This document shows positions 24,675 to 29,286 of a DNA stretch of 41,256 nt, piece by piece. A program made the position numbers and the translations under genes. This DNA comes from an uncultured Spirochaetales bacterium (lineage in GTDB: Bacteria; Spirochaetota; Spirochaetia; Sphaerochaetales; Sphaerochaetaceae): NCBI GenBank assembly GCA_945947045.1, contig CAMEXG010000003.1:1-41256 (forward strand). Reading direction: 5' to 3'. Below the pieces are notes generated by a model that saw nothing but the letters and a program-made list of their open reading frames with translations, did not search any database and was not told where the DNA came from. The first letter of the stretch is position 1. Every line of letters starts with the position of its first letter.

Positions 24675-26002
24675 TATTTTTTCCTCCCCATCTTCTTTCC
24701 AAGTTTAAAGCCCTGGACAAGGTCAATGTGGGATGGACAAGAGAAAGAGCAACATCCGCACTCTTTGCAGTCCATGAGACCCAAGGCCATTGCTTCGGCA
24801 TAGTTGCCGTTCTTAATATTCCTAAACATTCTGTTCGGCATCAATCCCATGGGACAGTGCTGTACGCATTTACCACAGGAGACACAGGGGAAAGTCAGAC
24901 CTTTCTTTTTGTCAGGAAGAGCCAATAGACCGCCACTGCCCTTTACCATAGGAACACTTTCATCGGGGACATCGAATCCCATCATAGGTCCGCCGCTTAC
25001 AAGCTCATAAACTCCGTCTTTCATTCCGCCGCAGTATTCGATGAGGGAAGAGAAGGGAGTTCCGATAGGTGCAAGTATATTCTTAGGCTCGTTGATGCAC
25101 TCGCCGCTGACTGTGATTCTTCTTTCAAAAAGCGGCTTATGATACTTTACAGCCTCAAATATTGCATATGTGGTGGCAGTGTTGCAGACAATACAGCCGA
25201 TATCCAAAGGAAGTTTTCCAGAAGGAATCTCCCTTCCGGTTACAGCCTTCAAAAGCTGTTTCTCGTCTCCTTGGGGATACTTCATCTTCAAGGGCTGGAT
25301 TTCTATAGGGTAACCAAGTTCTTTTGCCCTCTTATCCAGTCTCTCGGCGGCGTCCATCTTGTTCATCTCAATACCGATGACGATTTTTTCCGGCTCGACA
25401 GCCTTCGCCGCAATCATTGCACCTTCCAATAGATCATCTGTATTCTCAAGCATCAAGCGATAGTCACAGGTGATATATGGTTCGCACTCCACGCCGTTTA
25501 TTACAAGGTATTCGACTTTTTTTCCTGTAGGTACAGAAAACTTGACGCTTGTGGGGAATGTAGCTCCACCCATACCGACAATTCCCATTTCCTTTACAAG
25601 TGCCTGAATCTCTTCCTTTGACTGACTTCTCCAATCAAAAGCAGTCTTGAAAGAATCAGGCTGCTCCTGGTCCGGCTTGATGACAAGAGTATCTGCATTG
25701 GCACCCGTAGCCAATCTGACCTTTCTTACATCGACGACACTCCCTGAAACAGGAGAATGCACGTCTGCAGAAATAAAGGATGAAGCCTTTCCGATCACTT
25801 CACCTTTTTCAACCCTGTCCCCTTTTGCCTTTAACGGAGTGGCAGGGGCTCCTAGATGCTGAGACATTGAGACGTATAACTCACCGGGAAGGGGAAGTCT
25901 CTCGACAGCTTTGTCTTTTGTGAGACGCTTCATATCATCCGGATGAACGCCGCCTCTTTTGAAAGTGGCAATATTTAACACAACTGACTCCTTTTTAGTC
26001 AA
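24674..26002 (-). CDS. rnfC: Electron transport complex subunit RnfC
   Basis: FKRGGVHPDDMK, GMGGATFPTSVKF, INGVECEPYITCD, CVSCGKCVQHCPMGLMPN. Confidence 0.95.
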   Translation of the reverse strand: MTKKESVVLNIATFKRGGVHPDDMKRLTKDKAVERLPLPGELYVSMSQHLGAPATPLKAKGDRVEKGEVIGKASSFISADVHSPVSGSVVDVRKVRLATGANADTLVIKPDQEQPDSFKTAFDWRSQSKEEIQALVKEMGIVGMGGATFPTSVKFSVPTGKKVEYLVINGVECEPYITCDYRLMLENTDDLLEGAMIAAKAVEPEKIVIGIEMNKMDAAERLDKRAKELGYPIEIQPLKMKYPQGDEKQLLKAVTGREIPSGKLPLDIGCIVCNTATTYAIFEAVKYHKPLFERRITVSGECINEPKNILAPIGTPFSSLIEYCGGMKDGVYELVSGGPMMGFDVPDESVPMVKGSGGLLALPDKKKGLTFPCVSCGKCVQHCPMGLMPNRMFRNIKNGNYAEAMALGLMDCKECGCCSFSCPSHIDLVQGFKLGKKMGRKK

Positions 26003-26213
26003 CTATCATTTATTGTATGGTAAAATGCAATTCAACGCAAACTAGAAAGTAGTTTACTGATTCTTTTGTATTTATTTGAACAAAAAGGAATTAATTAAAA
26101 AGTTTTATTCGCTAAATCTTTATTTTATTAAAAATCGACAGTACTTTTCATCTTTCCTTGTTTCATTGTCTGTGTTATTCTCAAGTCTGTATAAAAAAGT
26201 AAGGAGAATCGTC

Positions 26214-26273
26214 ATGGACGGAGACCCCGGTAGTACAAAGAAACATATAGTATCCGTCTGGAACATACTCTGA
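26214..26273 (+). CDS. Putative 19-aa leader peptide of mgtE copy 1 (MDGDPGSTKKHIVSVWNIL)
   Basis: SD AAGGAG (26201-26206), 7-nt spacer, ATG GAC GGA GAC CCC...CTC TGA. N-terminus related to the leader ORF before the second mgtE. Confidence 0.75.
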   Translation: MDGDPGSTKKHIVSVWNIL

Positions 26274-26306
26274 CAGTGGACCTGTTCCGACGGATAGGAG
26301 GAACAG
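26251..26306 (+). promoter_or_regulatory. Candidate translational attenuator of mgtE copy 1: mutually exclusive anti-sequestor and SD-sequestor helices
   Basis: Anti-sequestor TATCCGTC(t)GGAACA 26251-26265 with TGTTCCGACGGATA 26283-26296 (14 bp, 1 bulge). Sequestor CTGTTCC 26282-26288 with GGAACAG 26300-26306, covering the last GG of SD AGGAGG (26296-26301) up to the ATG. Confidence 0.7.
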
Positions 26307-27665
26307 ATGACAAAGAAAAAAGAAAAACAGCAGGTAAAACCTGTAGACAAGGTCGTTATCTCTCCATTGGCTTTTAGGAATGAACTTAATAAGCTGTCCA
26401 GAGAGGATTTATTCATTAGAATTTCTAATCTAGATGAAGATGACAGAAAGAAAGCTTGGACTCTTCTAAGCGACGCGAAATGTGCAGAAATAATAGAAGA
26501 CTCAGGATCTCCTGTCGAATGGTTTTTGGAAATGAGTACAAAAAAAGAGAGTGGCGTAATATCTGTAATGGATGAAGAAAAAGCCACGGATCTTCTCTCC
26601 CTATTAGACCAAGAGAAGAGAGTCATGGTGATGGAGATGTCTGGAAAAAGCTTTCAAAAACGCCTGAGATACTCACCAGATGAAGTGGGGTCCATAATGT
26701 CTGAAGACTTCATTCTCTTGGAAAAATCTACAACCGTAAAAGATGCTTTTGAGAAAATCAGGGAAGAAGCAGAAGGGAAAGATAACATAAGGACTATCTT
26801 TCTCACAGATAAGGGAGAAGGGCTCTATGGAGAAGTGGACCTTCTTGATATTCTACGCTCTCCAGGAGACCAGACACTATCTTCTGTAGCCACCACGTCG
26901 TTCCCATATGTCTCGGCAAGTGCAAAGCTTTCAAAGACATTGGAATGGATTAAGGATTACAACCTTTCTTCATTTCCTGTAATCGACGAAGAGGGAAAGA
27001 CAATAGGTGCTGTAACGAGACAGAGTCTTATGGATATTGTCGAGAGGGAGATGGAGGAAGACTACAGAAAGCTCGCTTCTATAGGAGAAGACAAGAATAT
27101 GGGAGTAATATCATCTATGAAGGCTAGACTTCCTTGGCTTTTTATACTGTTGGGCTTAGGAATCATCGTTTCTTCATCCATAGGTTTTCTCTCATCTTTA
27201 GCCATGGGTCTGGCAATGGTTTTCTCTTTCCAGTCTCTTATCCTCGACATGACGGGAAACTCTGGAACTCAGACACTGGCAGTGGCTGTAAGAGCTTTAT
27301 CAGGAAGGGATTTATCCTGGAAGGAGAAGCTGACAATGCTGAAAAAAGAGTCTGCTTCAGGCTTTATTTCAGGTCTAATTCTTGGACTGGGAGCAATATT
27401 GGTACTATTTCCATATATTTTTCTACGTAGTGGTAACGGAGCATTATACTCTTTAGCTCTTTCTGTATGTATCTCTCTTTCCCTAATACTGGCAATGACT
27501 CTTTCAAATACAAGCGGTGCGTTCATTCCTATTGTCATGGAGAAAATCGGTGTGGATCCTGCAGTGGCATCGGGACCACTTATTACTACACTAAGTGACC
27601 TTATAGGAGCCTCTTCATACTACACTCTCGCCTATTTAGTGTTGAAAAAGGTGTTCCACTATTAA
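26307..27665 (+). CDS. mgtE: Magnesium transporter MgtE (copy 1)
   Basis: MgtE N domain, CBS pair, TM domain with LDMTGNSGTQTLAVAVRAL and GVDPAVASGPLITTLSDLIG. Confidence 0.95.
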   Translation: MTKKKEKQQVKPVDKVVISPLAFRNELNKLSREDLFIRISNLDEDDRKKAWTLLSDAKCAEIIEDSGSPVEWFLEMSTKKESGVISVMDEEKATDLLSLLDQEKRVMVMEMSGKSFQKRLRYSPDEVGSIMSEDFILLEKSTTVKDAFEKIREEAEGKDNIRTIFLTDKGEGLYGEVDLLDILRSPGDQTLSSVATTSFPYVSASAKLSKTLEWIKDYNLSSFPVIDEEGKTIGAVTRQSLMDIVEREMEEDYRKLASIGEDKNMGVISSMKARLPWLFILLGLGIIVSSSIGFLSSLAMGLAMVFSFQSLILDMTGNSGTQTLAVAVRALSGRDLSWKEKLTMLKKESASGFISGLILGLGAILVLFPYIFLRSGNGALYSLALSVCISLSLILAMTLSNTSGAFIPIVMEKIGVDPAVASGPLITTLSDLIGASSYYTLAYLVLKKVFHY

Positions 27666-27749
27666 AAATTTAGAAAAAAGTATGGAAAACCTTAGTTGTT
27701 AAGGGTTAATATTTCTTTGGCTCAAGCCAAAAAATTTTAGGAGAAAAGA

Positions 27750-27839
27750 ATGGACGACGGTACTGGAAGTATAGTCAATTTAGGCGGTTCGGACAGCGAA
27801 GTTCCTCTGAGTTTCCGTCGCATTCGACGGCAGAGCTGA
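27750..27839 (+). CDS. Putative 29-aa leader peptide of mgtE copy 2 (MDDGTGSIVNLGGSDSEVPLSFRRIRRQS)
   Basis: SD AGGAG (27739-27743), 6-nt spacer, ATG GAC GAC GGT ACT GGA AGT ATA...AGC TGA. Not in the supplied ORF track because of its length. Confidence 0.75.
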   Translation: MDDGTGSIVNLGGSDSEVPLSFRRIRRQS

Positions 27840-27875
27840 GCAAGATGATCCGCCTCCAAAATCAAATAGGAGGTG
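27782..27875 (+). promoter_or_regulatory. Candidate translational attenuator of mgtE copy 2: multibranch anti-sequestor versus SD-sequestor
   Basis: Anti-sequestor AGGCGG 27782-27787 with CCGCCT 27850-27855, enclosing CTCTG/CAGAG and CCGTCG-catt-CGACGG. Sequestor CGCCTCC 27851-27857 with GGAGGTG 27869-27875, hiding the SD AGGAGGTGA. Confidence 0.7.
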
Positions 27876-27882
27876 ACGAAGA

Positions 27883-29286
27883 ATGGATCCGGAGATTCAG
27901 AGCGGCCAGCATCCTGATTATGTAGGCGAGCTCGTAGAGATAATCAAAAGTAACATCTCACCCATGGCCCTGAAAGAAAAGGTAATGGGTTATCATGAAA
28001 ATGATATTGCAGATGCCATGGACAGGCTTACCCCCGAAGACAGGGGGAAGTTATACCGAATCCTCGACTCTGAAACACTGGCTAATATTTTCGAATACAC
28101 TGAAAACATTTCGACATATCTAAACGAAATCAGTGTAAAGAAAAAAATAGCTGTTCTCAGTGATCTCGAGACAGATAAAGCTACAGAATACCTGAAATCT
28201 CTCCCTAAAGGAGAGAGGACCACTCTCATTGAGTTCATGGATGATGATGCAAGAAAAGACATTGCACTTCTAGCATCCTTCGATGAAGACGAAATCGGCT
28301 CGATCATGAGCACAAACTTCATTGAAATAAAAACCGGAACAAGCATAAAAGAGGCGATGAGGGAGCTTATCGAGCAGGCTGCAGAGAATGATAACATCCA
28401 GACAATTTATGTAGTGGATTCAAACGGCCTTTTTTATGGTGCAATTGATCTAAAAGACCTTATCAGGGCAAGGGAAGGCAACACAATAGATTCTATCGTC
28501 TCTACTTCCTACCCTTATGTGTATGCCCATGAGTTGATTGACGACACCATGAACAAAATCAAGGACTATGCAGAGGACTCTATTCCTGTTCTTGATCAAA
28601 CAAATAAGTTACTTGGTGTAATCACCAGCCAGGATATGGTCGAAGTCATCGACGACTCCATGAAAGACGACTATGCGAAGTTTGCTTCTCTTGGAGATGT
28701 TGAAGACTTAAACGAGACGGTTGGACAGAGTTTGAAAAAACGTCTGCCTTGGCTAACCATCCTGTTGTTCTTGGGTATGCTTGTTTCAACTGTTGTAGGT
28801 CTCTTTGACTTTGTTGCACAGAAGCTCTCGATTCTTATCGCCTTCCAGTCTCTCGTCCTTGGTATGACCGGTAACTCAGGAACCCAGTCCCTTGCCGTTA
28901 CTATCAGAGTCTTGACAGATGAGAACTTGACTACCATGGATAAATTGAAGTTAATGTGGAAAGAAACAAGAATTGGTTTTGGTAATGGCGCCATTCTTGG
29001 CCTTACATCCTTCTTGGTCCTAGGTCTTTACGTATATTTCTTCAAAGACCAAAGTCTTTTGTATTCTTTCAGCGTCTCAGGCTGTACAGCCATCGCTCTT
29101 CTTGTCTCTATGACCATGTCTACTGCAATGGGCACTGTAATTCCTATTTTCTTTAAGAAAATCGGGGTGGATCCCGCAGTGGCATCAGGACCACTTATCA
29201 CCACCGTAAACGACCTTGTGGCTGTCGTTACATACTACGGATTGTCTTATTTGTTACTAATACGGCTAATGGGATTCGGCCTTTAA
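27883..29286 (+). CDS. mgtE: Magnesium transporter MgtE (copy 2)
   Basis: Same domain layout as copy 1; LGMTGNSGTQSLAVTIRVL and GVDPAVASGPLITTVNDLVA. Confidence 0.95.
   Translation: MDPEIQSGQHPDYVGELVEIIKSNISPMALKEKVMGYHENDIADAMDRLTPEDRGKLYRILDSETLANIFEYTENISTYLNEISVKKKIAVLSDLETDKATEYLKSLPKGERTTLIEFMDDDARKDIALLASFDEDEIGSIMSTNFIEIKTGTSIKEAMRELIEQAAENDNIQTIYVVDSNGLFYGAIDLKDLIRAREGNTIDSIVSTSYPYVYAHELIDDTMNKIKDYAEDSIPVLDQTNKLLGVITSQDMVEVIDDSMKDDYAKFASLGDVEDLNETVGQSLKKRLPWLTILLFLGMLVSTVVGLFDFVAQKLSILIAFQSLVLGMTGNSGTQSLAVTIRVLTDENLTTMDKLKLMWKETRIGFGNGAILGLTSFLVLGLYVYFFKDQSLLYSFSVSGCTAIALLVSMTMSTAMGTVIPIFFKKIGVDPAVASGPLITTVNDLVAVVTYYGLSYLLLIRLMGFGL

Follow-up and report, generated by a model that had tools for sequence, protein, structure and literature searches.

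Locus and Leader Organization

The window was a contig of 41,256 nucleotides from an incomplete genome of a spirochaete known from metagenome-assembled genomes. It contained two tandem mgtE genes, both on the forward strand and 40% identical to each other: mgtE copy 1 (mgtE1; 26307-27665; 452 aa; Pfam MgtE 6.9e-28, CBS 1.5e-14, and a weak match to MgtE_N under the cut-off) and mgtE copy 2 (mgtE2; 27883-29286; 467 aa; Pfam MgtE 2.7e-30, CBS and MgtE_N). The pair was preceded by a divergent cluster that was taken, from its protein sequences, to be rnf. Orthologues of mgtE1 (77-88% identity) were found in four genomes of the same genus. An AT-rich block between rnfC and mgtE1 (ATTCGCTAAATCTTTATTTTATTAAAAA, 26107-26135) was nearly invariant across the five genomes; its conservation exceeded that of the intergenic sequence around it, and it overlapped a weak minus-strand promoter-like match.

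Directly upstream of mgtE1, on the same strand, lay a Shine-Dalgarno (SD) sequence (AAGGAG, 26201-26206; invariant in five genomes) and a 19-codon leader ORF (leader 1, 26214-26273; ATG 26214-26216, stop TGA 26271-26273) encoding MDGDPGSTKKHIVSVWNIL, which was retained in all five genomes. Four further forward-strand regions defined the RNA pairings: region a (GGACGGA, 26216-26222) over the leader start codons; region c (UAUCCGUC-U-GGAACA, 26251-26265), formed by the last leader codons; region d (CTGTTCCGACGGATA, 26282-26296); and region f (GGAACAG, 26300-26306), over the spacer and the end of the mgtE1 SD (AGGAGG, 26296-26301). Region c was the left arm of an anti-sequestor, a 14-bp helix with region d (26251-26265 with 26283-26296) that had a single bulged U and reached as far as the SD's first A (ON). 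Alternatively, region d could pair with region f in a 7-bp SD-sequestor (CUGUUCC 26282-26288 with GGAACAG 26300-26306; OFF). Both helices need 26283-26288 and are mutually exclusive. In the predicted minimum-energy fold region a paired with UCCGUC(U) at 26253-26259, and, because region a thus competes for region c, the a:c, c:d and d:f pairings formed a chain of exclusive helices.

The original prediction had described the short ORF with its SD and ATG, the c:d and d:f helices and their exclusivity, and each was confirmed to the base at the coordinates given. The a:c pairing, a separate mgtE2 leader and the recurrence of such leaders before corA went beyond it. As had also been predicted, no U-tract followed the hairpin; there was no terminator-like site in 26000-26320, and an intrinsic-terminator (trp-type) attenuator was rejected on this ground. 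Control acting at translation, not at an intrinsic terminator, fits this arrangement.

The separate mgtE2 leader (leader 2, 27750-27839, forward strand; MDDGTGSIVNLGGSDSEVPLSFRRIRRQS) was conserved in the five genomes. The amino acids of codons 1-20 were almost invariant with synonymous changes present, giving the consensus MDDGTGSIVNLGGSDSEVPLGxRRIRR. Region a of leader 2 (GAAUG..CGACGG, 27748-27760) paired in the window over 11 bp with 27815-27825 (duplex -18.8 kcal/mol), and its region c (CCGTCGCATTC), recognized together with an adjacent CGACGG from sequence and alignment (27815-27830), could fold into a local hairpin in place of a:c. An SD-sequestor, CCGCCTCC with AGGAGGTGA (the mgtE2 SD; 27850-27876), was present in all five genomes. 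A candidate anti-sequestor (AGGCGG, 27782-27787) complemented CCGCCT (27850-27855) and was not favoured in nested folding; the mgtE2 SD stayed closed in every leader state tried by nested-partition folding. Leader 2 might instead work through folding kinetics, a pseudoknot or ribosome-mediated coupling at the leader stop.

Conservation of Leader 1

The mgtE1 upstream regions of the four relatives aligned across the entire leader. Retention of the short ORF and of the alternative pairings in relatives had been anticipated, and the leader and both arms were conserved in all four. Among the five genomes, residues 1-7 (MDGDPGS) were invariant, with codons 5 and 6 changing synonymously; the amino acid varied over the middle codons 8-13; and the 3' codons forming region c were largely kept as nucleotides. 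An N-terminus kept as amino acids followed by a 3' end kept as nucleotides is the pattern predicted for a peptide-sensing attenuator.

Compared with synonymous recodings that left the peptide unchanged, the c:d duplex was stronger in 5/5 genomes. The fraction of recodings that matched it was 0.0365, 0.0025, 0.0075, 0.0115 and 0.0010, placing c:d above 96-99.9% of recodings, depending on the genome. The a:c pairing, taken in mgtE1 alone, was not clearly above the synonymous null (0.05-0.35, five genomes).

Predicted Opening of the mgtE1 SD

Ribosomes were placed at various leader codons and the RNA 3' of each was folded, to compute how much energy it takes to open the mgtE1 SD. The untranslated folded leader hid the mgtE SD at an opening cost of 3.3-8.9 kcal/mol, the window mgtE1 SD standing at 3.3 kcal/mol. 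In the window a ribosome occupying codons 1-8 lowered this cost to 1.4-1.6 kcal/mol, and one placed from codon 11 to the stop raised it to 6.0-8.9 kcal/mol. The early ribosome state cost less than the untranslated state in 5/5 genomes; against the stop state it did so in 4/5, the exception being L040, where the SD opened more cheaply in the stop state. In three of the five genomes (L038, L040 and L041) the SD was predicted to be mostly hidden even in the early state, but less tightly than when untranslated. Where the leader 3' part was replaced by dinucleotide shuffles (25 each), the real leader opened the mgtE1 SD in the early state by a mean of 4.2 kcal/mol more than the shuffles (5/5 genomes).

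These folds bear on the direction of the switch. It had been proposed that plain early drop-off of the ribosome would expose the mgtE SD. In the predicted structures, the vacated leader start (region a) pairs with the left arm (region c) and the SD is hidden; an empty leader would therefore be OFF, and ON would need the leader start to be kept occupied, the logic also described for Salmonella mgtQ-mgtB (PMC8092293).

Acidic Leaders Before corA and mgtE

Leaders of this type were sought upstream of corA and mgtE, two unrelated Mg2+ transporter families. The criterion, fixed after the first examples had been seen, asked for an ORF of 12-45 codons, preceded by an SD, in which two acidic residues and one Pro fall within eight residues. 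Within the same bacterial family 33/40 corA genes and 23/42 mgtE genes had such a leader. Among mgtE genes of other families in the class there were 8 positives of 101, in scattered lineages. The controls, other ORFs in the fetched loci, gave 9/329 positives, four of which were misfiled mgtE or corA genes, leaving about 5/325. Loci fetched for hisS mostly yielded the adjacent helicase gene and did not serve as a hisS control. No such leader was found in about 25 readable corA loci of other spirochaete families, and the corA form therefore looks restricted to the family.

The leaders were about 17-44 codons long, mostly 18-32. Those of mgtE elsewhere in the class or family, each with an SD, included MESADPGSSKELFLPQSF, MDTDPGSCTC..., MTSRFMKADGDDPLSRLFSY, MEAGSSRLFADSDPVPDSRSSVFIR and MRKIDNPDSDPYSSKN...; those of corA, found in nearly every genus examined, included MDDGSYPLPxx, MDEGGSINPLPEK, MSTVDDGGSINPLPRN and MSDDSGSPLPR. 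The PLPR stretch of some spirochaete corA leaders also occurs in MgtL, the leader peptide of enterobacterial mgtA. Among the leaders DD, PLP and DP were spelled with varied synonymous codons, which argues that the peptide is under selection. When the family corA genes were viewed locus by locus (L239-L257, L259-L278), an acidic, mostly Pro-containing leader ORF lay about 95-165 nt upstream of almost every one, accompanied by the a:c, c:d and d:f pairings.

Counting from the first acidic residue, the next Ser was encoded by AGT in 56 of the 67 corA and mgtE leaders; other Ser codons of the same leaders were AGT in 48/233 cases (Fisher p=4e-21, with relatedness ignored). A constant RNA pairing partner for this AGT codon was sought in the leaders and none was found.

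Coevolution of the Pairings

For 34 corA loci, duplex energies were calculated with regions taken from one locus and again with regions exchanged between loci, a comparison that is conservative because close relatives are among the swaps. The three predicted pairings were stronger within loci, with p values that serve as guides, since the sampled genomes are related and independence is overstated: a:c, own -15.4 vs swapped -13.2 (p=2.5e-4); c:d, -19.1 vs -13.1 (p=3e-9); and d:f, -12.3 vs -8.2 (p=6e-7). Over the same 34 loci the non-predicted pairs gave no signal (a:d p=0.76; c:f p=0.34). Examples of these pairings were GGCAUCCU...GAACCG with CGGUUC..AGGAUGCC in L264 and GACCCUCC with GGGAGGGUC in L277. 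Among divergent mgtE leaders, coevolution was weak (c:d p=0.024, d:f p=0.033, a:c p=0.16). The coevolving d:f helix contained or flanked the gene's SD in mgtE1 and corA. The predicted early-state cost of opening the corA SD was likewise lower than with shuffled leaders (n=33, mean 1.9 kcal/mol, p=5e-5).

Proposed Mechanism and Alternatives

Leader 1 is probably a translational attenuator of mgtE1 in which the translating ribosome is the sensor, most likely of cytoplasmic Mg2+. Sequence and statistics show the leader ORF, the three pairings with their exclusivity, the conservation, and the coevolution among corA relatives. Conservation, folding and the coevolution seen in relatives strongly support that part of the original prediction in which an acidic, Pro-containing leader controls access to the mgtE SD by means of alternative pairings. 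Translation of the leader, with pausing or abortion at MDGDPG, is the presumed link. That Mg2+ is the signal, and which way the response runs, is suggested by the occurrence of one leader type before two unrelated families of Mg2+ transporter and by enterobacterial precedent. With no ribosome on the leader, a:c would form, d:f would pair and the hidden SD would keep mgtE1 OFF. When Mg2+ is good, the ribosome would run to the stop and cover region c, d:f would form, and the gene would again be OFF. When Mg2+ is poor, the acidic/Pro block MDGDPG would cause ribosomes to pause at the leader start or to abort there; with initiation occurring again and again, region a would stay covered and region c bare, c:d would form, and the exposed SD would turn mgtE1 ON.

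The same attenuator may answer to another signal, such as Pro or Asp tRNA charging, an EF-P or EttA-type factor, polyamines, or general translation stress. The ligand cannot be named from sequence, the AGT-Ser bias (56/67) hints at a codon-level cue, and for Salmonella, responses to charged tRNA-Pro (mgtP leader of the mgtCBRU operon) and to ATP (mgtM) are reported (PMC8092293). However, Mg2+ is the substrate common to both unrelated transporter families behind these leaders, and the constant part of the leaders is the acidic residues, not Pro alone, making a signal other than Mg2+ unlikely.

A small chance is also given to a leader that governs Rho-dependent transcription termination, with the SD-overlapping hairpins being secondary. 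The enterobacterial mgtA and corA leaders, mgtL and corL, do operate through Rho (PMC11552253). Translational control would instead predict a d:f helix coevolving at the SD, as was found for mgtE1 and corA, and 26000-26320 held no intrinsic terminator. A reading in which the ORF product works as a micro-protein comparable to MgtR or MgtS, the RNA pairings being incidental, is very improbable: the ORF is conserved and has its own SD, but the kept part is the N-terminal acidic/Pro block only, and the 3' part varies in residues and tracks base pairing. A spurious ORF with fortuitous complementarity would agree with the modest z of the whole-region fold (141 nt, z = -1.94), but is countered by the leader conservation, the family and control counts, the coevolution and the synonymous nulls, and is refuted as far as computation allows.

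Comparison With Known Leaders

In Bacillus the M-box (ykoK) riboswitch is known to control mgtE. The translational attenuator proposed for mgtE1 would share with it Mg2+ control of mgtE at the RNA level and differ in that sensing would occur via a translated leader. There was no Rfam match in the window, and specifically no M-box at E<=5 within 26000-27950, at gathering level in the window, or in 20 related loci; an M-box or other Rfam riboswitch was rejected for lack of a covariance-model match.

Leaders 1 and 2 are both conserved, SD-bearing short ORFs directly upstream of an Mg2+ transporter gene, and early acidic and/or Pro residues are present as in the mgtL, mgtQ and corL leaders. The acidic and Pro residues of MgtL and MgtQ hinder translation (PMC8092293; PMC11552253). 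The closest design is Salmonella mgtQ-mgtB, which has stems 1:2, 2:3 and 3:4 with 3:4 over the SD, is OFF when the leader is untranslated, and requires its acidic codons (PMC8092293). By sequence and folding, leader 1 had the same set of exclusive stems with 3:4 over the SD, and the two systems further share a short ORF with a strong SD, early acidic codons, a hidden Mg2+ transporter SD and, as predicted for leader 1, translational control. The mgtQ leader differs in belonging to another phylum, in having 8 codons, and in preceding a P-type ATPase gene, mgtB, that lies inside an operon and is not its first gene. The spirochaete leaders precede mgtE and corA, are longer and carry the AGT-Ser signature; no homology of sequence is claimed.

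The mgtL leader, which acts on enterobacterial mgtA through intrinsic ribosome destabilization, resembles the spirochaete leaders in its early acidic/Pro block and, as presumed for the latter, in an inverse coupling of leader translation efficiency to an Mg2+ transporter. It works by Rho-dependent termination, whereas the spirochaete leaders would sequester the SD itself, and the MDGDPGS start holds less Pro than MgtL. The corL leader of enterobacterial corA responds to Mg2+ and, like the predicted spirochaete switches, combines an upstream ORF, alternative RNA structures and inverse coupling (PMC11552253). It uses Rho and is described as poorer in acidic and Pro residues than mgtL (PMC11552253), whereas the spirochaete corA leaders are rich in both and pair with the SD region.

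In the literature searched, which left subscription papers mostly outside, neither leader-peptide control of mgtE nor such leaders in spirochaetes were found, and ribosome-based Mg2+ sensing by acidic/Pro leaders was documented for enterobacteria only. The same design before two unrelated kinds of Mg2+ transporter suggests that the ribosome has been used as a magnesium gauge independently of enterobacteria. It is tentatively proposed that the family evolved its own nascent-chain Mg2+-sensor regulon before mgtE and corA, with the same a:c/c:d/d:f SD switch and a fixed AGU Ser codon, located in the acidic block, that would contribute to sensing, e.g., as a deliberately slow codon. Were this so, a second lineage with other transporters and an SD-based switch would make ribosome instability at low Mg2+ a general, repeatedly tapped signal. 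The dozens of natural leaders, with D/E, G/S, PLP and DP variants, could be used to find nascent-chain features that destabilize ribosomes.

Distribution of mgtE and corA in the Genus

In the five genomes that carried both mgtE1 and mgtE2 (G000, G012, G022, G031 and G061, some of which are incomplete) the CorA match was weaker or absent. The rest of the genus mostly had a strong CorA match and no mgtE. On this distribution mgtE and CorA seem to substitute for one another, with the leader type retained.
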